This document shows positions 20,280-35,104 of a DNA stretch of 52,890 nucleotides, one piece after another. Both the position numbers and the translations under genes were made by a program. Under the pieces are notes generated by a model, which did not search any database, had not been told where the DNA came from, and saw nothing but the letters and a program-made list of their open reading frames with translations. The stretch's first letter is position 1, and every line of letters begins with the position of its first letter. The stretch spans positions 1 to 52,890 of the forward strand of contig JANXYO010000110.1 in NCBI GenBank assembly GCA_025356015.1. Reading direction: 5' to 3'. Source of the DNA: Spirochaetaceae bacterium (GTDB lineage: Bacteria > Spirochaetota > Spirochaetia > Treponematales > Rectinemataceae).

Positions 20280-21053
20280 CTAGTGCTTGCCCACCGTCTC
20301 CGATCCCACGATGAGGCCGACCACCTCGTCGGGGCTCGTGTCCTTCACGACCCGCTCGCCCACCTTGACGCCACGGCGCATGACGGCGAGGCGATCTGCC
20401 ACCTCGAACACGTCGTACATCTGGTGGCTTATGATGATGATCGCGATGCCCTGGTCCTTGAGGGTCCGCACGAGGTTGAGGACCTTGCGCTGCTCGGCGA
20501 TGCCCAGGGCCGCCGTAGGCTCGTCCATGATGAGGACCTTGGCGTCCCAGTAGATGGACCTCGATATGGCGACCGCCTGGCGCTGGCCTCCGGACAGGGT
20601 CTTGATGGTGCTCTTGAGCGAGGGGATGTGGATGTCCAGCCGGTCGAGGACCTTCTGCGCCTCCAAGGCCATGCTCGGATCGTCAAGGACCTTGAGGACC
20701 CCAAGGCTCCGCTTCATCCTCTCCCGGCCGAGGAAGATGTTCGCCCCCACGTCGAGGTTCTCGGCGAGGGCGAGGTCCTGGTAGATGGTCTCGATGCCTG
20801 CGGCGAGCGCGTCAATGGGCGACTCGATGCGAACCGTCTTGCCCCCCATGAGGATCTCGCCCTCGTCAGGGCGGTAGACGCCCGAGATCAGCTTGATGAG
20901 GGTGGACTTGCCGGCCCCGTTGTCGCCCAGGAGGGCCAGGACCTCCCCGGCCTCCACCCCTATGCTCACCCTGTCGACCGCGGTGAGTCCGCCAAAGCGC
21001 TTCACTATGTCCCTGGTCTCGAGCACGTATTCCATGTTCCTGTCCTCCGTCAT
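20280..21053 (-). CDS. Single-domain sugar ABC transporter ATPase (FrcA-like)
   Basis: This ATPase of 257 aa is about half the size of RbsA and resembles the FrcA branch that works as a dimer. Walker A is [12 protein letters not shown], the signature TLSGGQRQAVAISRS and Walker B VLIMDEPTAALG. The switch histidine follows in IIISHQM. ATG 21053 overlaps the upstream permease stop by four bases (ATGA). It completes a binding-protein, two-permease, one-ATPase operon (20280-24283). The substrate is probably a monosaccharide and unknown in detail. Confidence 0.92.
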   Translation of the reverse strand: MTEDRNMEYVLETRDIVKRFGGLTAVDRVSIGVEAGEVLALLGDNGAGKSTLIKLISGVYRPDEGEILMGGKTVRIESPIDALAAGIETIYQDLALAENLDVGANIFLGRERMKRSLGVLKVLDDPSMALEAQKVLDRLDIHIPSLKSTIKTLSGGQRQAVAISRSIYWDAKVLIMDEPTAALGIAEQRKVLNLVRTLKDQGIAIIIISHQMYDVFEVADRLAVMRRGVKVGERVVKDTSPDEVVGLIVGSETVGKH

Positions 21054-22132
21054 TTCCTGGATTCGGGCATGTAGCGTTCCATGACCACCGCGAAGATCAG
21101 GATCGCTCCGACAAGGATGTACTTGTTGAAGGTCGGAGTACCCGACATTCGCAGGCCGAGCTCGAGCACCGCGATTATCAGCGCTCCCACCATCGTGCGG
21201 CCCACGGTTCCCGTTCCGCCGAACATCGAGGCTCCGCCGATCATGACGGCCGCGATGGCGTCGAGGAGGATGCTGGCCCCGGCGTCGGCCTTGCCCGACA
21301 CGTACATGAAGGCGTACACGACACCGGCCAGGGAGGCGAGGAAGGAGGAGAGGGCGTACACGCCGAGGAGCCTGCGCTTCACGGGGATGCCGGCCCTCAC
21401 CGCCGCGTCACTGTTCCCGCCTATCGCGTAGATGTGGCGGCCGAAGCGCGAGCGGCGCAGGACAAAGGCGAAGACGCCCACCACGATGGCGGTCACCACG
21501 ACGATGATCGGGATGACCTCGAGGACCTGGACTCCGCGCTCAACCTCGGGCCTGGTGAAGAAGGAGACGATGCCCCCCGGTGCCAGGTAGAAGAAGTGGC
21601 CGTTCCCTATATCGGCGGCGAGCTGGGGCAGGCCCATGGCGTAGATGCCGTTGATCAGGAGCTCCGACACCCCGTGGCAGACGCCGAGCATCGAGAAGGT
21701 GGCTATGAAGGGAGGCACGCCCAGGTAGGCGACGAGCCAGCCGTTGATGAGTCCTGGAACGAGGCCGATCACGAGGGTGATCGCTCCCCCAAGTAGGAGG
21801 GCCAGGGGGGCGGGCAGGCCGGCATTTCCAAGGAAGACGATGAGCTTGATCGACACGATCGAGGCGAAGCCCAGGACATAGCCGACCGAGAGGTCGATCC
21901 CGCCTGTGACGATGACGAAAAGCTCGGCGACGGCTAGGAGGAAGACCTGGACCCCGTAGAACAGGAGGATCTGGGCCGAGTTGAGGTTGGCGAAGCCCTC
22001 GGTCCTGAAACAGAAGTAGGCCGTCTCGAGGAGGAGGAATGCGATGACCCAGCGTCCGCCGATGAAGGCGCGCAAGGCGCCGCTGCCGAGCAAGGCCTTC
22101 CGCGGAAGTGTTCCGGTGTCCTGTGTGTTCAT
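21050..22132 (-). CDS. Sugar ABC transporter permease (RbsC/FrcC type) 1
   Basis: This inner-membrane permease of 360 aa carries the RbsC hallmark FVIVTGGIDLSVGYVLGFAS and the coupling segment GRHIYAIGGNSDAAVRAGIPVKR, which contacts the ATPase. About nine hydrophobic helices are visible. I choose ATG 22132, with AGGAGG at 22144-22149 overlapping the previous gene's stop; the open frame to 22795 is read-through in permease 2. It is similar to its neighbour at 22147-23217, so the importer probably uses a heterodimer. Confidence 0.93.
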   Translation of the reverse strand: MNTQDTGTLPRKALLGSGALRAFIGGRWVIAFLLLETAYFCFRTEGFANLNSAQILLFYGVQVFLLAVAELFVIVTGGIDLSVGYVLGFASIVSIKLIVFLGNAGLPAPLALLLGGAITLVIGLVPGLINGWLVAYLGVPPFIATFSMLGVCHGVSELLINGIYAMGLPQLAADIGNGHFFYLAPGGIVSFFTRPEVERGVQVLEVIPIIVVVTAIVVGVFAFVLRRSRFGRHIYAIGGNSDAAVRAGIPVKRRLLGVYALSSFLASLAGVVYAFMYVSGKADAGASILLDAIAAVMIGGASMFGGTGTVGRTMVGALIIAVLELGLRMSGTPTFNKYILVGAILIFAVVMERYMPESRK

Positions 22133-22146
22133 GGGCTTCGAGCCTC

Positions 22147-23217
22147 CTATCGCAGGTTCGGGAAGAGCTTGTCGATGACCACCGCTATGACGAGCAGGAC
22201 GCCGACTGCGATGTACCGGTAGAAGGGCTGGACTCCCGAGATGGCGAGGCCGTTCTCGAGGAAGGCGAGCACCAAGACGCCCACGGCCGAGCTCCAGACC
22301 CTCCCCTTCCCGCCCGAGAGGCTCGCCCCGCCGATGATGACGGCGGCCACAGCGAAGAGCTCGTACATCGCGCTGAAGGTCGTGTAGTTGCCGATGCCCG
22401 TCTGGAAGATGTTGAACACCCCGGCTATCCCCGCCAGGAAGGAGGAGAGGGTGTAGATCTTTATGACGTGGCGGTCGACGTCGATCCCGGAGCGGACCGC
22501 CGCGTCCATGCTTCCGCCTATCGCGTAGGTATGGCGGCCGAAGCGCTTGCGCTTGAGGGCGAAGGCAAGGACAGCGAGGATCGCGAGGATGAAGGGCAGG
22601 GAGAAGGGGATGAGGCGCCAGAGCTCGCGCACCCTGGCGTCGGGGAACCAGGAGGGCTTGCCGAACAGGCTCATGAACTGCCCGGGCAGGGCGTAAAGGA
22701 AGTAGCCGTTGCCCATCTCGGGCAGGGCGTCGGGGAGGCCGGCCACGGGGAAGCCCTGGCAGAGCTTGAGCGCGAGACCGTTGGCGATGCCCCACATGCC
22801 CATCGTCGCGATGAAGGGCGGGACCTTGAAGCGCGTGATGATGATGCCGTTTATGAGGCCGGGGATGAGGGAGCCGACCAGGACTATGCCTGAGGCGAGG
22901 ACTATGACCCAGCCCACCGGAAGGCCGGAGGCGAGAAAGGCCTGCATGAGTCTTGCGGCGCTCACCGAGACGAGCCCCATGACAAAGCCGATGGAGAGGT
23001 CGATGCCGCCGGAGATTATGACGAAGGTCTCGGCCGCGGCGAGGAGGAGGGGGACGGTCTGGAGGTGGACGACGTTCTGGAAATTGACGATCGAGAGGAA
23101 ATTCTGCCCCGTCATGCTGAACACGACGAGCATGAGGAGGAGGAAGAAAGCCGCCCAGTTGTTCGCGAGGCTCCGTCCGAGGCCCGTGGCGAGGAAGCCG
23201 CCGCTATCGTCACTCAT
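22147..23217 (-). CDS. Sugar ABC transporter permease (RbsC/FrcC type) 2
   Basis: This permease has 356 aa, with FVIISGGIDLSIGFVMGLVS and the coupling segment GRHTYAIGGSMDAAVRSGIDVDR. It is the first permease after the binding-protein gene. ATG 23217 has GGAAGG upstream. It is a paralogue of the permease at 21050-22132, presumably from an old duplication, since the two differ throughout. An 88-bp gap with a strong stem-loop separates it from the binding-protein gene. Confidence 0.93.
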   Translation of the reverse strand: MSDDSGGFLATGLGRSLANNWAAFFLLLMLVVFSMTGQNFLSIVNFQNVVHLQTVPLLLAAAETFVIISGGIDLSIGFVMGLVSVSAARLMQAFLASGLPVGWVIVLASGIVLVGSLIPGLINGIIITRFKVPPFIATMGMWGIANGLALKLCQGFPVAGLPDALPEMGNGYFLYALPGQFMSLFGKPSWFPDARVRELWRLIPFSLPFILAILAVLAFALKRKRFGRHTYAIGGSMDAAVRSGIDVDRHVIKIYTLSSFLAGIAGVFNIFQTGIGNYTTFSAMYELFAVAAVIIGGASLSGGKGRVWSSAVGVLVLAFLENGLAISGVQPFYRYIAVGVLLVIAVVIDKLFPNLR

Positions 23218-23250
23218 GGTGTGCCTTCCACTGTGGTGTTGGATTATGGC

Positions 23251-23289
23251 GAGCCCGGGAGGCCGCGCGTGGCGATGCCCCCCGGGCTC
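23251..23289 (-). promoter_or_regulatory. Stem-loop between binding-protein and permease genes
   Basis: GAGCCCGGGAGG (23251-23262) pairs with CCCCCCGGGCTC (23278-23289): eleven of twelve positions match around a 15-base loop. There is no U-tract after it on the minus strand, so it is more likely an mRNA-stabilising or partial-termination structure that raises the binding-protein level over the permeases than a full terminator. Confidence 0.6.
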
Positions 23290-23305
23290 CTTTAGGAGTC
23301 GCTGC

Positions 23306-24283
23306 TTACTGGTAGATGAAGGGCTGCATAGCCGGGCTGCTGGCGTTCTCGCGGGTGAAGAACTCGAAACCGGGGATCACCTTCTTGGGGACCTTTACGT
23401 TCTTCTTGTCCTTGAGGTACTTGACGCCCCACTCGATGCCCAGGGCGCCCATCTCGCCGGGCTTCTGGGCCAGGACGAGGTCGGCGTTGCCCTTCTTGAG
23501 GTTGGCGATGTTGTCGAGGGTCGCGTCCCAGAGGCACATCTTCACGGCGCCGGAGAGGCCGGCGTTGATCACTGCCTGGGTCGCGCCCTGGGCGGAGAAG
23601 ACGTTGAGGCCGAAGATGCCGACGATGTCCTTGTCCTTCTGGAGGGCGGCGAGGGTCTGCTCCTGGGCCTTCTGCTGGATGTCCTGGCACCACTCAACGC
23701 CGACCAGCTGCATCTTCGGGAACTCGGCCACGCCGGCCTTGAAGCCCTTGACGCGTCCCTGGACCGACGAGGCGTCGGGGTTCGTCGCCTCGACGAAGAC
23801 CTTGCCCTTCTCGCCGACGAGCTTCGCGAGCTGCTCGGCCATCTGCTTGCCGCCGAGCTCGTTGTCCGAGCCGATGTAGGAGAGGGGGAAATTGTAGTCC
23901 GACTTCTTCGAGTAGTCGCCGTCGCCGAGGAAGGTGTCGACCGTGATGATCTCGGTGCCCTTGTCGTAGATGGCCTTGAGCGGTGCCTTGAGGGCCTCGT
24001 TCGAGGTCGGGGCGATCAGCAGCAGGTCGAATTTGCCGCGGGCGATGGTCGCCTGGAGGATGGGGATCTGGTTCTCGGGGCCCCAGGCCTTCGGGTACTC
24101 GGCCACCGTGAGGTCGACGCCGGCCTTGTCGGCCGCCGCCTTGATGCCCTTTTCCATGGTGAAGTAGAAGGGATCAGCAACGCCAGGCATGAAGAGGACC
24201 TTGAGCTTGGCCTGGGAGAAGCCAGGCATCGCCACGAGGACGATCATGAGGATCGCGAGTACCGCGATGATCGACTTTTTCAT
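23306..24283 (-). CDS. Periplasmic sugar-binding protein (RbsB-like, Peripl_BP_4 type)
   Basis: This binding protein has 325 aa. The signal peptide MKKSIIAVLAILMIVLVAM ends near FSQA. The mature part opens KLKVLFMPGVADPFYFTMEKGIKAAADKAGV, and ARGKFDLLLIAPTS, YIGSDNELGGKQMAEQL and FVEATNPDASSVQGRVKGF follow the type-I binding-protein pattern. I use ATG 24283, seven bases after GGGAG; a GTG at 24289 sits on top of that ribosome site. It heads the operon running to the FrcA-like ATPase. It is not close enough to RbsB or FrcB by eye to name the ligand. Confidence 0.92.
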   Translation of the reverse strand: MKKSIIAVLAILMIVLVAMPGFSQAKLKVLFMPGVADPFYFTMEKGIKAAADKAGVDLTVAEYPKAWGPENQIPILQATIARGKFDLLLIAPTSNEALKAPLKAIYDKGTEIITVDTFLGDGDYSKKSDYNFPLSYIGSDNELGGKQMAEQLAKLVGEKGKVFVEATNPDASSVQGRVKGFKAGVAEFPKMQLVGVEWCQDIQQKAQEQTLAALQKDKDIVGIFGLNVFSAQGATQAVINAGLSGAVKMCLWDATLDNIANLKKGNADLVLAQKPGEMGALGIEWGVKYLKDKKNVKVPKKVIPGFEFFTRENASSPAMQPFIYQ

Positions 24284-24642
24284 AAGCACGCTCCCTGCTC
24301 GCTAGGAATTGTCCGGCGCCAGGGCCGGCTCAAGCCCTATAATGCTGGAACCATGCCAGCATCGGGGGCGGATGGAAGATTCCGCAATATTCGCGCCCCC
24401 GGGGACGAGCACAGCCATCCGCGCCTCGGGATCCTGCGCGGTTGTTGCCGGCTTGCCCCGGGTCTCGCATCCTTTGACAAAAACTCCAAACTAAGGGCTC
24501 CAGCAATGCCTTGCCCTGCAATCGATTACAAAGTGGACACCGCACATCTATCCGGTTGAGGGGGAGCCCAGGCTGGGCGTGACTGCATAGCCAGGTATCC
24601 ATAGACTGGTTACCGGAGTAACCATGACCGGGGTCGACGCCC
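24284..24642. other. 359-bp non-coding gap with two palindromes
   Basis: No convincing gene lies between nagA and the sugar-binding-protein gene. ATGCTGG (24342-24348) pairs with CCAGCAT (24356-24362), about 60 bp upstream of the binding-protein start, next to an A/T-rich TATAAT/ATTATA word at 24338-24343. That is a plausible promoter-operator for the sugar operon. Just past the nagA stop lies the perfect palindrome TGGTTACCGGAGTAACCA (24607-24624), an operator or the stem at the end of the nagA message; there is no T-run. A -24/-12-like word near 24502-24517 is too weak to call. Confidence 0.45.
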
Positions 24643-25791
24643 CTATTCGAAGATGGTTCTGACCGCCTCGAACTCACCCTCCCAGACGACGAGGGTCGCG
24701 TCCAGGCCAGGGGATATCGCCCCCCTGCGCTTTTCGATGCCAAGGGCCTGGGCTGGGGTCAGGCTCAGCATGCGAACAGCGTTCTCCGCAGAGGATCCCG
24801 TCGTCCGCAACCAGTTGCGCAGCACGTCGGGCACGAGGCGGTTCGAGCCCATCAGGATGCCCGTTTCGGCGTAGCGCACCCCATCCGGGCCGGACACTAT
24901 CCGCGTCCCATAATAGGAATACTCCCCGTAGGGCATGCCCGCGGCGATGACGGCATCAGAGATGAGCATGAGGCGATCGGGGTCGATGGCTGCCGCGCAG
25001 ACTCGGAGGGCCGCCTCGTTCACATGGACCCCGTCCCCGTTCAGCTCGACATAGGGCCTGCGGTCCAGGAAGGGCAGCATCGCCAGGCCCGGCTCCCTGT
25101 GGGAGAAGGGAGACATGGCGTTGAAGAGGTGGGTGATGGAGAACCTGCCGTCGGGCAGGCTGACCTTGTCGAGGACGCAGTCGGAGTGGCCAAGGCTGGG
25201 AAGGACGCCCACCGCGAGGAGCCGGGCGATGATCTCCCGGGCGCCGGGGAGCTCCGGTGCGACCGTCATGAGCTTGAGCCGGCTCCGCGTCAGGTTGATG
25301 AGCCTGCCCAGGTAGGCCGAGTCAGGATCGCGTATCGTATCGGCCGGGATGCCTCCGCGCCTTGAGGGGTTCACGAAGGGCCCTTCGACATACATGCCCG
25401 GCAGGTCGCCCTCGCTGATGCCCGAGGCCTCGATGGCGGCGGCGAGGGCTCCGAGCTCGGCCTCGCGGCACAGGAGGGTCGGCACAAAGGTGGTGACCCC
25501 CCGCCCCCTGAGGAAGGCCCTGGCCGCCTTCAGGGCCTCGACGCCCGAGGCGAGGTCTGGCCCGAGCCCATCGAAACCGATGCCCCCGCAGCCATGGATG
25601 TGCAGCTCGATCAGGCCGGGGCTTACCCAGGCCCCGCCGACATCGATCCGCCTCGGGCCCGGGGGGAGCCTGTCCTCCTTCTCGAGCACGGCCTTGATCC
25701 TGCCGTCGCGGACGAGGATCGAGGCATCGTCCAGGACGGCGCGGGGAAGCACGAGGCGACCGTGCGTGATTAGGTATTCTTCGACTGCCAC
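24643..25791 (-). CDS. nagA: N-acetylglucosamine-6-phosphate deacetylase
   Basis: NagA removes acetate from GlcNAc-6-phosphate in amino-sugar and cell-wall recycling. The 382-residue amidohydrolase shows PGLIELHIHG with His64 and His66 (Glu replaces the usual Asp in IDxHxHG), the metal ligand Glu136 in MYVEGPF, His202 in GHSDC, His221 in THLFNAM, DGVHV, and catalytic Asp279 in ISDA. The usual KKGAH loop after EGPF reads RRGGIP, so the substrate may differ. GTG 25791 is preferred, since a stop lies in frame just upstream. No nagB or kinase is adjacent. Confidence 0.88.
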   Translation of the reverse strand: MAVEEYLITHGRLVLPRAVLDDASILVRDGRIKAVLEKEDRLPPGPRRIDVGGAWVSPGLIELHIHGCGGIGFDGLGPDLASGVEALKAARAFLRGRGVTTFVPTLLCREAELGALAAAIEASGISEGDLPGMYVEGPFVNPSRRGGIPADTIRDPDSAYLGRLINLTRSRLKLMTVAPELPGAREIIARLLAVGVLPSLGHSDCVLDKVSLPDGRFSITHLFNAMSPFSHREPGLAMLPFLDRRPYVELNGDGVHVNEAALRVCAAAIDPDRLMLISDAVIAAGMPYGEYSYYGTRIVSGPDGVRYAETGILMGSNRLVPDVLRNWLRTTGSSAENAVRMLSLTPAQALGIEKRRGAISPGLDATLVVWEGEFEAVRTIFE

Positions 25792-28840: not shown

Positions 28841-30904
28841 TTAGGCCCTGGCCTCCTCCACTGCCTTGGCGAAAAGCGCCGACCAGGCCGAGCCCTCCTT
28901 CCAGAAACAGGGCGGCTCGCCGAGGGGCGCCTCGATCAAGACCTCGGCCGGCCCCGCACTGCCGTAGCGCCGACCCGACCAGGCATGGACCCAGGCAGCC
29001 CCGGGCAGATGGACTGTCCGCGACAAAGCGCCTTCTCGCACCACGGGCGCGACAAGCATCTCCCCGCCCAGAAGGTACTCGTCCTTGACCGTCCAAGATG
29101 CCTCGTCCTCCTCGTGGCCGAGAAAGAGGGGCCGCATCACCGGCAGGCCTGTCCTCGAGTTTTCGGCGATCGCCGCCTTCAGGTAGGGCGCGAGGGCGAC
29201 ATGGAAGCGGACCATGCGGGCGAGGTGCCCAAGGGTCTCGGCATCGCTGTCAAACTGCCAGTTGTCCCTCGGCCTGTTTCCCTCGTGGCTCCTCATGAGG
29301 GGGCTCAAGGCGGCCTGCTCGGCCCAGCGCATGAAGAGCTCCTTCGTGCGCTTCATCCCGTACAGGGTCGTGTAACCGCCGATGTCACTGTGGCTCAGGC
29401 CGTGGCCGCTCAGGCCCAGGGAGAGGGCAGCGGTGATCACCGAGGGCAGGCCGTCGTCCTCCGACCAGTCCACGTTCTGGTCACCCGCCCACATCATGGG
29501 GCACCAGGCCTGGCTGCCCGCCCCTCCCGCGCGCATGAAATACAGGGCCTCTGAGGCCCTCCCCGACTCGTCGACCGCCTCGCGGTTGCACCGGGCCCAG
29601 GTGGCCGGCCAGGCATTGTGCGCGATCTCGGCGCTCGTCCCGTCGAAGAGGACTGCGTCCGTTGGCAGGTACTCTCCGAAGTCGGCCATCCAGCCCGAGA
29701 GCCCGAAGTCGAGGAGCTCCCTTCGGATAACGCCCTTGTACCACTCGAAGGCCTCGGGATTCGTGAAGTCCACGATCCCCGCCTCGAACTCGCCGAAATC
29801 TACCAGGTAGTTCCCGCCTGCCTTGTTCCTGGCCAGGAAGCCCTGCCCTGCCGCCTCATTGAAGAGGCTCATGCCAGCTCCTACATAGGGATTGATATAG
29901 CCGAGGAACCTCACGCCCTCGAGCGCGAGGGCGCGGATCGCCTTGTCGAGGCCGGGATACCTTTCCCTGTCCCAGACCCAGTTCCAGCGAAGACGCTGGC
30001 CGAAGCTCGTGTGGTTGACCCCCTCCCAGTCCTGGGCCCAGATCCCGGCGACCGCCACCCCCGCGGCCCGAGCCGTCTCAAGCTTCTCGAGGCAGGTCTC
30101 GGTCCCGCCCTGGATTCCCAGGATGATCCCCTCGTGGCACCACTCCGGCAGCTCTCCCTGATGGCCGAAATAAGCCGCCAGGTTGCCGACGAGACCGGCC
30201 ATCGTGTCAGCCCAGCCAATGACCAGCTCACGCGGCAGGGCCCAGGCGGAGAGCTCGTGGCGCTCAGGGGAGCGGAAGTCGAAGCAGGCATAGGCGCTCG
30301 TGTCGAGGTGGTACCAGAGCCTCCTCGAGGAGACAAAACTCGGCTGGGGGAAGAAGGTCCACCAGTAGTCGCCCCCGGCCTTGCCCTCGACGTCGGCCTG
30401 CCAGGTCACCAGGCTCGACTTGTTCCTGCCCACGCCCTGCTCGCTCGTCCAGAGCGGGAACTGCCGCCCCCTGAGCTCGAGGTGGGAGAACTGCTCCCCG
30501 CAGCCATAGACCCTTTCACCCTCCTCGGCGGCGATGGCGATTCGCCAGCGGTTGGCCTTGGCCGCCTCCTCGCCCAGGGCGGCGAGGCGTATGACGAGCC
30601 TGCCGTCCTCGATCCCGAACCGGGCCGAGACCGAGTAGGCCCCCGATCGGGAGAACCTGAGCTCGGCGAGCACGAGGCCCTCTCCGTCCAGGGACTTCCG
30701 CAGCTCGCCCAGCTCGTAGTCCCTCAGGGCCACCAGCTCGCCAAGCCGTTCCGAGATTTCGAAGTTGCCGCGGTACATCTCGAAGCGGCCCTCGCCCAGG
30801 CCGGCGCTCAGGAAGGCTTCTCCCCTGCTGTGGCGAATCACCACCTTGCCGGCGACCTCGATCTCGAAACCGCCTGAGAGCTCGCGCAGGATAAACTTGT
30901 CCAC
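28841..30904 (-). CDS. yihQ: GH31 sulfoquinovosidase (YihQ-like)
   Basis: This 687-residue family-31 glycosidase closely matches E. coli YihQ, which cleaves sulfoquinovosides (such as sulfoquinovosyl glycerol from plant sulfolipid) to sulfoquinovose. Catalytic nucleophile Asp408 (GWMADFGEYLPTD) and acid/base Asp475 (MMWAGDQNVDW) are present. The residues that recognise the sulfonate in YihQ are also here: Gln291 (AQDW), Arg304 and Trp307 (GQRLRW), and Tyr511 (IGGYTTL). Each is offset by exactly three from YihQ numbering as I recall it (D405, D472, Q288, R301, W304, Y508). There is no signal peptide, so it is cytoplasmic. The start is GTG 30904, seven bases after the permease stop, last in a MalEFG-type operon. 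Confidence 0.88.
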   Translation of the reverse strand: MDKFILRELSGGFEIEVAGKVVIRHSRGEAFLSAGLGEGRFEMYRGNFEISERLGELVALRDYELGELRKSLDGEGLVLAELRFSRSGAYSVSARFGIEDGRLVIRLAALGEEAAKANRWRIAIAAEEGERVYGCGEQFSHLELRGRQFPLWTSEQGVGRNKSSLVTWQADVEGKAGGDYWWTFFPQPSFVSSRRLWYHLDTSAYACFDFRSPERHELSAWALPRELVIGWADTMAGLVGNLAAYFGHQGELPEWCHEGIILGIQGGTETCLEKLETARAAGVAVAGIWAQDWEGVNHTSFGQRLRWNWVWDRERYPGLDKAIRALALEGVRFLGYINPYVGAGMSLFNEAAGQGFLARNKAGGNYLVDFGEFEAGIVDFTNPEAFEWYKGVIRRELLDFGLSGWMADFGEYLPTDAVLFDGTSAEIAHNAWPATWARCNREAVDESGRASEALYFMRAGGAGSQAWCPMMWAGDQNVDWSEDDGLPSVITAALSLGLSGHGLSHSDIGGYTTLYGMKRTKELFMRWAEQAALSPLMRSHEGNRPRDNWQFDSDAETLGHLARMVRFHVALAPYLKAAIAENSRTGLPVMRPLFLGHEEDEASWTVKDEYLLGGEMLVAPVVREGALSRTVHLPGAAWVHAWSGRRYGSAGPAEVLIEAPLGEPPCFWKEGSAWSALFAKAVEEARA

Positions 30905-30911
30905 CGTGGTC

Positions 30912-31754
30912 CTAGCCTTTCACGCCGCCAGCCGAGATGCCCCGGACCAGGAAGCGCTGCATCGTGACCGTGAAGACAAAGACCGGCACGAGCATGAGGG
31001 TGCCGGCCGCGCAGGCCTGGCCCCAGGTGAGGGTCTCGCCCCCGATCAGGCCGTTGATCGCGATGGGGGCCGTCTTGGCGTTGACGCCCGTCAATATCAG
31101 GGCGTAGAGGAATTCGTTCCAGCAGTTGATGAAGGCGAAGACGGCGCTCACGACGAGGCCTGGCGCGGCGAGGGGGAGGAAGACGCGCCAGAAGACGCCG
31201 AAGGGCGAGCAGCCGTCGACTCGCGCCGCTTCCTCGTAGCTCTTGTCTATCGCCGCGAAGAAGGGCAGGAGCATCCAGATGACATAGGGTATGTTGAAGC
31301 TCGAGTACGCGAGGGTGAGGCCGAAGACGGTGTCGCGGATGTGCGCCATCTTGAACATCAGGTAGAGGGCGATGACCAGGGAGATCTGGGGCAGCATGCG
31401 GAACACGAGGAAGCCGTAGGCCAGCGCGTCCCTCCCCTTGAAATGGTAGCGGGACACCCCGTAGGAGGCCATGGCCCCGGCCAGGACCGAGACAAAGGTG
31501 GCCAGGAGGCCGATGAGGATCGAGTTCTTCATGCCGAGGAGGAAGCCCGGGTTCCTGAGGACGAGCTCGTAGCTCCGCAGGGAGAGCTGGGACAGCTCGA
31601 AGGGCCTGCCGCTCAGGATGACGATATCCTTGCGAAAACCGTTAAGGAGGGTTATGCCGATCGGGTATAGCTCTATCGCGAGGACCATGAAGGCCCCGAT
31701 CGCTATCAGGACCGTCGTGAAGGCCTTCCTGCGTTTCTTGCCAATCGCGTTCAT
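30912..31754 (-). CDS. Carbohydrate ABC transporter permease, MalG type
   Basis: This inner-membrane permease has 280 aa and about six helices. The cytoplasmic EAA coupling loop reads EEAARVDGCSPFGVFWRVFLPLAAPGL. ATG 31754 overlaps the MalF-type stop by four bases (ATGA); the open frame continuing to 32147 is read-through. It sits between the other permease and the YihQ-like enzyme, so the importer probably carries sulfoquinovose or its glycosides, as SmoEFG does in Agrobacterium. No ATPase gene is in the cassette, so a shared MsmK/UgpC-type ATPase encoded elsewhere is expected. Confidence 0.92.
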   Translation of the reverse strand: MNAIGKKRRKAFTTVLIAIGAFMVLAIELYPIGITLLNGFRKDIVILSGRPFELSQLSLRSYELVLRNPGFLLGMKNSILIGLLATFVSVLAGAMASYGVSRYHFKGRDALAYGFLVFRMLPQISLVIALYLMFKMAHIRDTVFGLTLAYSSFNIPYVIWMLLPFFAAIDKSYEEAARVDGCSPFGVFWRVFLPLAAPGLVVSAVFAFINCWNEFLYALILTGVNAKTAPIAINGLIGGETLTWGQACAAGTLMLVPVFVFTVTMQRFLVRGISAGGVKG

Positions 31755-32782
31755 CGTCCGCCCGCCTTGCGCTCGAGCTCGTCGAGGCTCATGTTCCTCC
31801 GCACCAGAGTGGTCGCGAAGAGTATGGACAGCACAAGCAGGAAGATCGCCATCGCGCTCGCCATGCCCACCCGCATGTAGGTGAAGCCCTGCCTGTAGGT
31901 GTATAGCGAGAAGAGCAGGGTGGCCGAGCCCGGCCCTCCCTCGGTCATGACGTACACCTCGCTGAACACGCGCAGGGCGTCGATGATGCGAAGGAGCACG
32001 GCCGTGAGGATGGTCGGCACGAGGAGGGGAACGATCACGCTGCGCAGACGCCTCCCGTAAGTGGCGCCATCGATCTCCGCCGCCTCGAGCAGTTCGCTCG
32101 GGACATTCGTGAGGCCGGCGTAGAGGAGCATGAACATGAAGGGCCACATCCTCCAGACATCCTGGGCCACGATCGCGACATAGGCGAAGGTGGGATCGTT
32201 GAGCCAGGTCATCTCGGGGATGCCAAGGGCGATGAGGAGGGCGTTCAAGGGGCCGTAGCGCGGCTGGAGCATGAAGCGCCAGGTCATTCCCGAGACGATC
32301 GGCAGAAAGAAGACCGGCAAGAGGAGGAGGGTCCTGACCACCCGGGCGCCGAAGAATTCGCGATTGAGCAGGAGGGCGGCGCAGAAGCCGAGGAAGAGCT
32401 CAAGGGGGATGGCGATGAAGATGAAGCCAAGCTGGAGCTTGAGGCTGTTCCAGAATTCGGGATCGATCGCCAGGGCAGAGTAGTTGCCCAGACCGACGAA
32501 CCTGGGCTCACCGGCTCCCGAGGAGAGCGGCCAGTTGAAGAAGGATACATAGAGCGAGAAGAGTATGGGGAAGATGAGGACCGCGAAGACGACCAGGAGG
32601 GCCGGGAGGAGGAAGAGCCATGGTGGTGCGTCGTTGAGCCTTTTCCCGAGGCCGGGCCTTGCTCCCCGCGGCCCCGCTATCGCATCGGCCGCGGGCGTCT
32701 GCCTCGCGGCCACCGGGGAACCAAGCCGATCTGTGACAGAAGGATCGCCTTCGATCCCTTTCAAGCCGATTCCCCGGTTCAT
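31751..32782 (-). CDS. Carbohydrate ABC transporter permease, MalF type
   Basis: This permease has 343 aa, with a polar N-terminal tail of about 50 residues before the first helix (PPWLFLLPALLVVFAVLIFP). The EAA loop reads LLEAAEIDGATYGRRLRSVIVPLLVPT, and the C-terminal part VYVMTEGGPGSATLLFSLYTYRQGF is standard for MalF/UgpA relatives. ATG 32782 lies 12 bases after the binding-protein stop. The N-terminal tail is unusually rich in Pro, Ala and Gly; a later in-frame start cannot be excluded. Confidence 0.92.
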   Translation of the reverse strand: MNRGIGLKGIEGDPSVTDRLGSPVAARQTPAADAIAGPRGARPGLGKRLNDAPPWLFLLPALLVVFAVLIFPILFSLYVSFFNWPLSSGAGEPRFVGLGNYSALAIDPEFWNSLKLQLGFIFIAIPLELFLGFCAALLLNREFFGARVVRTLLLLPVFFLPIVSGMTWRFMLQPRYGPLNALLIALGIPEMTWLNDPTFAYVAIVAQDVWRMWPFMFMLLYAGLTNVPSELLEAAEIDGATYGRRLRSVIVPLLVPTILTAVLLRIIDALRVFSEVYVMTEGGPGSATLLFSLYTYRQGFTYMRVGMASAMAIFLLVLSILFATTLVRRNMSLDELERKAGGR

Positions 32783-32794
32783 CGATGCCCGCTT

Positions 32795-34072
32795 CTAGTT
32801 GCCGGCCGCGGCGAGGACGGCGTTGGTTTCCTTGATGATGGCCTTCACAGCGTCTACGCAGGGAGTCTGGCCGGTGATGCCCTGGATCCAGTATTTCTTC
32901 ACGATGTCCTGGATCTGGGGGATCTCCTTGAGCCTGGGCCGGGCGGTGGCGTACTTCATCGACTCGGCGATCGCGGCGAGCCATGGCTTGTTGGCGAACC
33001 TAGGATCGGCGAGGGCGTCGCTTCGCGCGGGGATGGTGTTGGCCTCTACGAGCCTCGACGCGATGTCCTTGGAGGCCCACCAGTAGACGAACTCGGCCGC
33101 TGCGGCCTGCTGCTTGGAGGCGGCGGGGATGGACAGGGCCCAGGTTCCGCGGACGGCCACCGTCTTGGCTGGGCCGGCGGGTGGGGCCGAATAGAGGATC
33201 TTGCCTGCCACGAGTGACTTGTCGGGATCCTCGTAGGCCGAGATCTGGGCCGGCCAGATGAACATCGAGAAGACGCCCTTGGGATCGGCGGCGAAGGCGG
33301 CCTGGCGCTCGACATGGGCCATGGTCTCGGCGCCCTTGGGGGAGATCGCCATCAGCTTCTTGTAGAACTCCATGCCCTCGGTGGCCTTCTTCTCGTCAAG
33401 GACGACCTTGTACTTTCCGCCCTGGTAGTCGATGAAGTGGGTGCCATAGGATTCCCACATGAAGATCGCCTCGCCGTGCACGCCTGCCGGGCCGCCATTG
33501 AAGGGACCGAAGCCAGCCGAAATGCCGCGCTCGTTGAAGAAGGTTCCCATCTCGAGCATCTGCTTGAAGGTCTTGGGCACCCCAAGGTCGTAGTTGTACT
33601 TCGCCTTGAAGTCCTTCCTGTACTGGGGGTTCTCGACGAGGTCCTTGCGGGTCATCCACACATAGAGGTTGCCGTTGATCGGCAGGCCGACGAGCTTGCC
33701 GTCCCACATGCCGACGTCGAGCATGGCCGGGGTCACGGTCTCTTTGCCGACCTTGGGAAATTTCTTGCCCGCGGGCCAGGCTTCGTAGGGGACCATGAGG
33801 TTCGCGAACAGGGGCACGTTGCCCTCATCCATCGCCACGATGTCATAGTCGGTCGAGGTCTTGCTCACCGCGACAGAGGTCTTGGTGAGGACCTGGGGGG
33901 GCTGGAGCATCTCGATGTTGACCTTGATGCCGGTGGCTTTCTCGAATTCGGGCAGCATTGCCTGCAGGGCCTTCGGGTAGGGATCGTCCCAAAGCAGGAC
34001 ATTGATTGTCTGCGCCCCCAGACCCGAGATGGTGATGAACGCAACAAAGGCGATGGCCGCGATCTTCCTCAT
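32795..34072 (-). CDS. Extracellular solute-binding protein, MalE/SmoF type
   Basis: This family-1 solute-binding protein has 425 aa. The signal peptide MRKIAAIAFVAFITISGLGA is cut before QTINVLLWDD. Family features are PEFEKATGIKVNIEML, TDYDIVAMDEGNVPLFA, VGLPINGNLYVWMTRKDL and the C-terminal WALSIPAASKQQAAAAEFVYWWAS. ATG 34072 has AAAGGAGG upstream; the frame to 34123 lies in the promoter region. It is the first gene of the operon ending in the sulfoquinovosidase, so its ligand may be sulfoquinovosyl glycerol or a relative. That is inference from context. Confidence 0.92.
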   Translation of the reverse strand: MRKIAAIAFVAFITISGLGAQTINVLLWDDPYPKALQAMLPEFEKATGIKVNIEMLQPPQVLTKTSVAVSKTSTDYDIVAMDEGNVPLFANLMVPYEAWPAGKKFPKVGKETVTPAMLDVGMWDGKLVGLPINGNLYVWMTRKDLVENPQYRKDFKAKYNYDLGVPKTFKQMLEMGTFFNERGISAGFGPFNGGPAGVHGEAIFMWESYGTHFIDYQGGKYKVVLDEKKATEGMEFYKKLMAISPKGAETMAHVERQAAFAADPKGVFSMFIWPAQISAYEDPDKSLVAGKILYSAPPAGPAKTVAVRGTWALSIPAASKQQAAAAEFVYWWASKDIASRLVEANTIPARSDALADPRFANKPWLAAIAESMKYATARPRLKEIPQIQDIVKKYWIQGITGQTPCVDAVKAIIKETNAVLAAAGN

Positions 34073-34092
34073 AATAGCCTCCTTTGGCTTTT

Positions 34093-34134
34093 CTTTCTTC
34101 GTGAAAGTAAACCACGCCCTCATACCCCTGTCAA
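34093..34134 (-). promoter_or_regulatory. Sigma-70 promoter with overlapping palindrome, solute-binding operon
   Basis: On the minus strand, TTGACA (34129-34134) and TTTACT (34106-34111) are exactly 17 bp apart. The palindrome CTTTC-ttcgt-GAAAG (34093-34107) overlaps the -10 and the expected start near 34099. A repressor bound there would block transcription. The divergent DeoR-type gene at 34322 is the natural candidate. Confidence 0.6.
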
Positions 34135-34321
34135 CCTATTTTTGCCGCCCGAGACAGCATCGCAAGCCAGCAAAAACAGGCCCCTCTTGCTTGCGCCGCA
34201 GGGAATGGCGCGATAAGATACGATCATTAACTCGCTATTCTGATCGGTACTCGCCAGCTTCACCGGCACAAAGCCGCATTGGCATCAGCAGCATATACTC
34301 GCAAAGGCGGAGGGCGCAAAC

Positions 34322-35104
34322 TTGAGGGGCTCGGGAAGGATTATCGCTCAGAGAAGACAGAGGCTCATCCAGCTGCTCGAGCACGAAGGCGGAGCCAAGG
34401 TCCTCGATCTCCGCGAAAAGCTGGGCGTTTCGGAGATCACCATCCGCCGGGATCTCGAGGAGCTCGCGGACGAGGGCCTCGTCGAGCGCTATCACGGCGG
34501 AGCCCGGCTCAAGGACCGCCCCGTGATGGAGCTCGTCTACGAAGACAAGAGCCTCCTCCACGCGGCCACGAAGGGCGCGATCGGAGCCGCAGCGGCCGCC
34601 CTGGTCAGCGAGCGGTCGACCATCCTGCTCAACGCCGGCTCGACAGCCCTCGCCGTCCTCCACCACCTGCGCGACCGCTCCCTGCGGGTGGTCACCAACA
34701 ACGCAGCGGCGCCCGCCGAGATCGGCGGTTCCAATGTCGAGCTCATCCTCCTCGGCGGCGAGTACAGGGCGAAGTCCCGCTCCCTCTTTGGGGACTTCGC
34801 TGCCCTCACCCTGTCCCAGGTGCACGCGTCGATGTGCATCCTCGGCGTCAACGGGGTGAGCGCGAAGACCGGGCTCACCTTCTCCGTCTATACCGAGGCG
34901 GCGATCAACCGGCTCATGGCTGAACGCTGCAACGGAGAGGTCGTGGTCGTCGCCGACGGCACAAAGGTCGGCACCACCTCGAACTTCGCCTGCGTCCCCA
35001 TCTCCCGGGTCCACGTCCTGGTCACCGACGCCTCAGCCGACCCGCAGGAGCTCGCCGCCATCGAGGCCTCGGGGGTCAGGGTCATAGTCGTCCCGCGACC
35101 TTGA
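34322..35104 (+). CDS. DeoR-family regulator divergent from the sulfoquinovosidase operon
   Basis: This repressor has 260 aa. The helix-turn-helix region reads RRQRLIQLLEHEGGAKVLDL, LREKLGVSEITIRRDLEELA and then the hallmark RYHGGARL. The DeoR sensor domain (about 80-235) includes TILLNAGSTALAVLHHL, VVTNNAAAP and LGGEYRAKSRSLFGDFA. The start is TTG at 34322, supported by GGAGGG seven bases upstream; no in-frame ATG is better placed. E. coli CsqR (YihW), the repressor of the sulfoquinovose operon, is also DeoR-type and divergent, which supports a matching role here. The stop overlaps the tRNA-Leu promoter. Confidence 0.9.
   Translation: MRGSGRIIAQRRQRLIQLLEHEGGAKVLDLREKLGVSEITIRRDLEELADEGLVERYHGGARLKDRPVMELVYEDKSLLHAATKGAIGAAAAALVSERSTILLNAGSTALAVLHHLRDRSLRVVTNNAAAPAEIGGSNVELILLGGEYRAKSRSLFGDFAALTLSQVHASMCILGVNGVSAKTGLTFSVYTEAAINRLMAERCNGEVVVVADGTKVGTTSNFACVPISRVHVLVTDASADPQELAAIEASGVRVIVVPRP

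Follow-up and report, generated by a model that had tools for sequence, protein, structure and literature searches.

A spirochaetal operon predicted to import and cleave sulfoquinovose glycosides upstream of a probable, dispersed sulfo-transketolase pathway

Photosynthetic organisms make sulfoquinovose (SQ) in very large amounts, SQ glycosides form the head groups of sulfolipid in plants, and the anaerobic breakdown of SQ to isethionate feeds sulfide producers. Here, we analyzed an operon for a sugar importer and a glycoside hydrolase of family 31 (GH31) on a 52,890-nucleotide stretch of spirochaetal DNA (contig JANXYO010000110.1 of assembly GCA_025356015.1; the whole stretch is referred to as the window). 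Related systems are known from spirochaetes. Members of the Sphaerochaetaceae, including Neosphaerochaeta fermentans, are reported to encode the sulfoquinovosidase (SQase) YihQ and to transcribe sulfo-transketolase (sulfo-TK) genes in SQ-fed rumen fluid (PMC13219744, ISME J 2026); the cluster figure of that study names a Smo-type transporter, and the sulfo-TK pathway was found in 11.8% of 246 Sphaerochaetaceae genomes. A 2026 review (PMC12890257, citing Liu 2021 and Chu 2023) lists sulfo-TK in Spirochaetes, and clusters of the SQ monooxygenase (sulfo-SMO) type have been reported in Spirochaetota too (PMC13372026). The remark in a preliminary description of the window that no described spirochaetal version was known is therefore out of date. 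Judging from gene sequences, the operon very probably forms the uptake-and-hydrolysis front end of sulfo-TK sulfoglycolysis in a spirochaete.

The window belongs to a single, fragmented genome (4.17 Mb; 150 contigs; 99% complete), the nearest relatives of which are metagenome-assembled genomes (MAGs) of Spirochaetota, as expected from the spirochaete-like character first ascribed to it. The following features were delineated (ABC, ATP-binding cassette):

28841-30904, minus strand: GH31 sulfoquinovosidase (YihQ type); 687 aa, GTG start, last gene of the operon
30912-31754, minus strand: ABC sugar permease 2 (MalG-like, BPD_transp_1); 280 aa; PF00528, E 3e-20
31751-32782, minus strand: ABC sugar permease 1 (MalF/UgpA-like); 343 aa; PF00528, E 1e-11
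32795-34123, minus strand: extracellular solute-binding protein, family 1 (SBP_bac_1); 442 aa; PF01547, E 9e-21
34124-34321: divergent intergenic region between the binding-protein and DeoR genes; 198 bp
34322-35104, plus strand: DeoR-family transcriptional regulator; 260 aa, TTG start; PF00455/PF08220

The intergenic distances of 12, -4, and 7 nt indicate a tight minus-strand operon in the order binding protein, permease 1, permease 2, and SQase, with the DeoR gene divergent. The start of permease 2, checked on the sequence, is the ATG at 31754, which gives an ATGA overlap with permease 1. Coordinates and gene calls agree with the preliminary description, which had placed the GH31 gene last in a MalEFG-type import operon facing a divergent DeoR gene. 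Two absences that it reported were also confirmed: the operon contains no MsmX/UgpC-type ATPase gene and no dedicated SmoE-like one (seven UgpC/MsmX-type candidates are encoded in other parts of the genome), and none of the sulfoglycolysis probe proteins matched an open reading frame in the window.

The GH31 protein scored 917 bits against NF007746, the YihQ-type equivalog model of NCBIfam (cutoff, 553 bits), which still bears the name "alpha-glucosidase." Among solved structures, YihQ (5aed) was the first match with 815 bits, other YihQ-type chains scored approximately 690 to 790 bits, and GH31 enzymes other than SQases scored at most 153 bits. A maximum-likelihood tree nested the protein among spirochaetal members inside the YihQ clade. 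In a MAFFT alignment with YihQ of Escherichia coli K-12, the catalytic aspartates (D408 and D475) correspond to YihQ D405 and D472, and the complete sulfonate pocket (Q265, Q291, R304, W307, and Y511) corresponds to Q262, Q288, R301, W304, and Y508; all seven residues compared are identical, each with an offset of +3, exactly as had been claimed. The alignment of GH31 relatives has 117 rows, 104 of which carry the full set (i.e., Q-Q-R-W-D-D-Y), and the pocket is kept in all close homologues examined, including the Arg/Trp/Tyr residues on which the earlier SQase assignment had been staked. Because the set is so widely kept, while a paralogue from the same genome (on contig C91) reads Q-G-G-S-D-D-A, the match cannot be ascribed to chance. 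The bit scores and the pocket residues lead us to reject a plain alpha-glucosidase identity, and the name GH31 sulfoquinovosidase can be regarded as settled at the sequence level. Since no signal peptide is evident in its sequence, the enzyme is probably cytoplasmic.

Two other kinds of YihQ-like GH31 protein were observed. The paralogue on C91 (C91:20552-22576; L004:10553-12577, minus strand) lies directly after the gene for an SQ isomerase homologue, retains both catalytic aspartates, and has lost the sulfonate pocket (Q-G-G-S-A versus Q-Q-R-W-Y). Its closest relative seen (L140 from genome G323; E-R-R-W-D) is only 45% identical, and it probably represents a paralogue with a new substrate. 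In addition, nine alignment rows from Spirochaetota (L127, L128, L130, L132, L138, L139, L141, L142, and L007:19662-21851) form a group in which Gln replaces Arg301, the residue that binds the sulfonate (i.e., Q-Q-Q-W-D-D-Y).

All four operon genes recur as a block at SQase loci in other Spirochaetota or in MAGs. The gene order of the window is repeated at loci L006, L011, L012, L014, and L017, the binding-protein gene is divergent at L008, and the operon is partly present at L053. Permeases 1 and 2 share 70 to 78% and 66 to 75% identity, respectively, with SQase-linked permeases of other spirochaetes, and orthologues of the binding protein (65 to 76%) adjoin SQase genes at L006, L008, L011, L012, L014, and L017. 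Halanaerobium kushneri has a more distant version (35 to 46%; binding protein, 35%) in its SQase cluster (L049). At seven other spirochaetal loci (L007, L009, L015, L020, L054, L064, and L065), the same kind of SQase is accompanied by a different importer. The two types of binding protein (i.e., window type and Sphaerochaeta type) are only about 14 to 17% identical. Our results suggest that, in a single phylum, this enzyme is supplied by two distinct ABC importers.

The genes next to these SQases connect the enzyme to a known pathway. At L007, L020, L054, L064, and L065, and in part at L015, the SQase gene lies beside genes for an isomerase, SqwG, SqwH, SqwI, SqwF, and TauE/SafE, which in the L007 and L020 clusters constitute the published sulfo-transketolase set (PMC9594981, PMC11659671); at L006 and L012, the window-type importer itself lies beside SqwH, SqwI, SqwD, and SqwKL genes. 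Across 393 Spirochaetota genomes (thresholds, at least 50% identity for SQase and at least 70% for SqwI), SQase was detected in 15 genomes (one as a contig-edge fragment), SqwI in 18, and both in 14. The corresponding Fisher p value (about 2e-21) includes no correction for kinship and is inflated by shared ancestry. Independent of that value is the physical linkage: the two genes lie within 13 kb of each other in eight of the nine genomes that have both on one contig. As a side observation, a DUF4867 protein (SftX) accompanies the SQ clusters of spirochaetes and Bacillota (e.g., L012:13341-14138, minus strand) at most SQ loci.

We searched the genome of the window with sulfo-TK proteins from the SQase-linked clusters, and candidates for the downstream steps were found on other contigs. 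The preliminary description had proposed a check of the rest of the genome after seeing no sulfoglycolysis enzyme in the window; that absence stands for the window but does not extend to the genome. An SQ isomerase homologue (C91:22576-23895) is 66% identical to the isomerase of the L007 sulfo-TK cluster and 61 to 66% identical to isomerases inside SQase-linked sulfo-TK clusters in general; a search of solved structures with this protein gave no match. On C109, a SqwI gene (24085-24552; 78 to 79% identity) is followed contiguously by genes for SqwF (39 to 41%) and TauE/SafE (47%), in the same order as at L020. The SqwH homologues encoded on C125 and C138 fall into one group with SqwH proteins linked to SQase (local supports, 0.93 to 0.95). 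An isomerase match on C57 was set aside, its neighbors being a sugar kinase and dehydrogenases with no sulfoglycolysis genes, as was a split transketolase on C90 that falls outside the SQase-linked clade. Since the SQase gene is almost 22 kb or more from both contig ends and no pathway gene lies in the window, the pathway appears to be dispersed in this genome.

Two of these loci have features of their own. The C138 locus (L098:4584-15096) combines a SqwGH-like pair (58 to 69% identical to SQase-linked proteins) with an IclR-like regulator, an Fe-ADH protein, an SMP-30-like protein, and a ribose-type ABC transporter, and may represent a second sulfosugar or sugar pathway. At the C90 locus (L100:5955-13290), with names assigned by eye, sugar ABC transporter genes are followed by the split transketolase that does not belong to the SqwGH clade, by a zinc-type dehydrogenase, and by a GFO/IDH-like protein; the locus looks like another transketolase-based sugar pathway.

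We infer the substrates, the direction of flux, and the ATPase partner of the system as follows. On the outer side of the cytoplasmic membrane, the binding protein would catch a short SQ glycoside such as sulfoquinovosyl glycerol, and the two permeases would import it with energy from a shared ATPase of the MsmX/UgpC type, the gene for which lies elsewhere. The cytoplasmic GH31 enzyme would then hydrolyze SQ-glycerol with retention of configuration to free SQ and glycerol, with D408 as the nucleophile, D475 as the acid/base, and Q265, Q291, R304, W307, and Y511 holding the sulfonate. The C91 isomerase would convert SQ to 6-deoxy-6-sulfofructose, a split transketolase (SqwGH-like; C125 and/or C138) would remove two C2 units, and SqwI would isomerize the C4 intermediate. 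SqwF would reduce sulfoacetaldehyde to isethionate, which the adjacent TauE/SafE protein would export.

A rival explanation would be an ordinary uptake operon for alpha-glucosides (maltose- or trehalose-like) with a plain alpha-glucosidase. The binding protein was modeled from five sequences with a poor result (pLDDT, 48.6) and then from 30 sequences (pLDDT, 86.5). The best folds for the second model were MalE3 (Z, 45.6) and a trehalose/maltose-binding protein (Z, 43.8), closely followed by SmoF (Z, 42.9; rmsd, 2.3), and the closest solved relatives of the binding protein by sequence are likewise maltose/alpha-glycoside binders, a point in favor of the rival, as is the NCBIfam name of the GH31 model. 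SmoF has the same fold, however, and the near-tied scores do not separate SQ-glycerol binders from maltose binders. Set against the complete pocket, the distance of the GH31 enzyme from non-SQase enzymes in bit score, and the consistent linkage to sulfo-TK genes, an alpha-glucoside operon is extremely improbable. The SmoEFG-H-like system of the preliminary description holds insofar as an SQase is combined with a MalEFG-type importer; its binding protein is no close relative of SmoF (approximately 20% identity; weak sequence match, E 1e-4). Since the fold scores are too close and the linkage to SQase is consistent, it is from the linkage that we infer the specificity of the importer, and the protein presumably binds sulfoquinovosyl glycerol or SQ.

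Several other observations weigh against a complete sulfo-TK pathway behind the operon. The pathway genes lie on at least four contigs and form no single cluster; the only NCBIfam match of the C91 isomerase is SftI, at 177 bits (cutoff, 700), and its gene adjoins the GH31 paralogue without a sulfonate pocket; the SqwG gene next to SqwH on C125 is cut off by the contig end; and the intact SqwGH pair on C138, adjoining the ribose-type transporter, may serve another sugar. Genome searches for YihT and SqwL gave no match, although both are weak negatives with no positive control in the genome. One could thus suppose that the SQ-glycoside importer and the SQase function here without sulfo-TK fermentation, the C91 isomerase and the C125 and C138 transketolases serving other sugars and SQ being exported or broken down by an unrecognized route. 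The dispersal of the genes and the company of the isomerase and of the C138 pair fit this supposition, but the contiguous SqwI-SqwF-TauE genes in the order of SQase-linked clusters, the presence of SqwI in 14 of the 15 SQase genomes, and the isomerase orthologues inside SQase-linked sulfo-TK clusters make it unlikely. The end product could also be sulfoacetate, as the SqwD and SqwKL genes beside the same importer in the close relatives L006 and L012, and a SqwD-like aldehyde dehydrogenase on C60 (42% identity), might suggest. Isethionate is indicated instead because no SqwL was matched in this genome, and SqwF and the exporter directly follow SqwI; we consider the sulfoacetate variant very unlikely. 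A more detailed joint reading is conceivable, which we put forward tentatively and as somewhat less than probable: the binding protein and permeases would form a second SQ-glycoside importer family, non-orthologous to the Sphaerochaeta type and known only next to SQases (in spirochaetes and Halanaerobium), the sulfo-TK pathway would be scattered, and the isomerase would be paired with an SQase paralogue for another glycoside.

The regulator had been likened to CsqR. The parallel extends only as far as membership in the same very large family; a comparison addressing orthology alone found no CsqR orthologue beside the cluster (28% identity; best NCBIfam scores, GlpR/AgaR models), and relatives do not conserve the DeoR gene next to the operon. 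Its position suggests that it may control the operon. The 198-bp gap contains imperfect inverted repeats (e.g., 34135-34145/34170-34180) that are short and may be due to chance, and no consensus sigma-70 promoter was found in it; the scan for promoters, terminators, and short repeats yielded nothing to rely on. Elsewhere in the window (21050-25791, minus strand) lie genes for a ribose/simple-sugar type ABC transporter (two BPD_transp_2 permeases and a Peripla_BP_4 binding protein) and a NagA-like deacetylase (224.6 bits, just below the NCBIfam cutoff of 225.65).

These results extend a known fermentation to a spirochaete lineage outside the Sphaerochaetaceae, and show that a genome scan demanding one cluster will overlook the sulfo-TK pathway where its genes are dispersed. 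The window SQase shares its catalytic and sulfonate-binding residues with E. coli YihQ, whereas the E. coli yih cluster relies on YihO for import and on the sulfo-Embden-Meyerhof-Parnas enzymes (YihS/T/V/U), and its regulator CsqR has no orthologue in the window DeoR protein. With the Agrobacterium SmoF-type system (sulfo-SMO), the operon shares a MalEFG-type importer, a cytoplasmic GH31 SQase, and the SmoF fold; it differs in the sequence of its binding protein, in having no dedicated ATPase gene, and in a downstream route that, in searches without SQ monooxygenase probes, looks like sulfo-TK. The sulfo-TK clusters of the Sphaerochaetaceae (N. fermentans, PMC13219744) and of Clostridium sp. 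MSTE9 (Liu et al. 2021, via PMC9594981) comprise a YihQ-type SQase, a sugar ABC importer, an isomerase, SqwGH, SqwI, SqwF, and a TauE/SafE-type exporter, all of which have homologues here, spread over several contigs. The regulator beside the window operon is of the DeoR family, in contrast to the ROK-like one (by eye) in L007- and L020-type clusters. We therefore regard the operon as a solid but ordinary instance of the standard SQ-glycoside import and cleavage system already described in spirochaetes, set apart by a binding protein unlike that of Sphaerochaeta and by the dispersal of its pathway.

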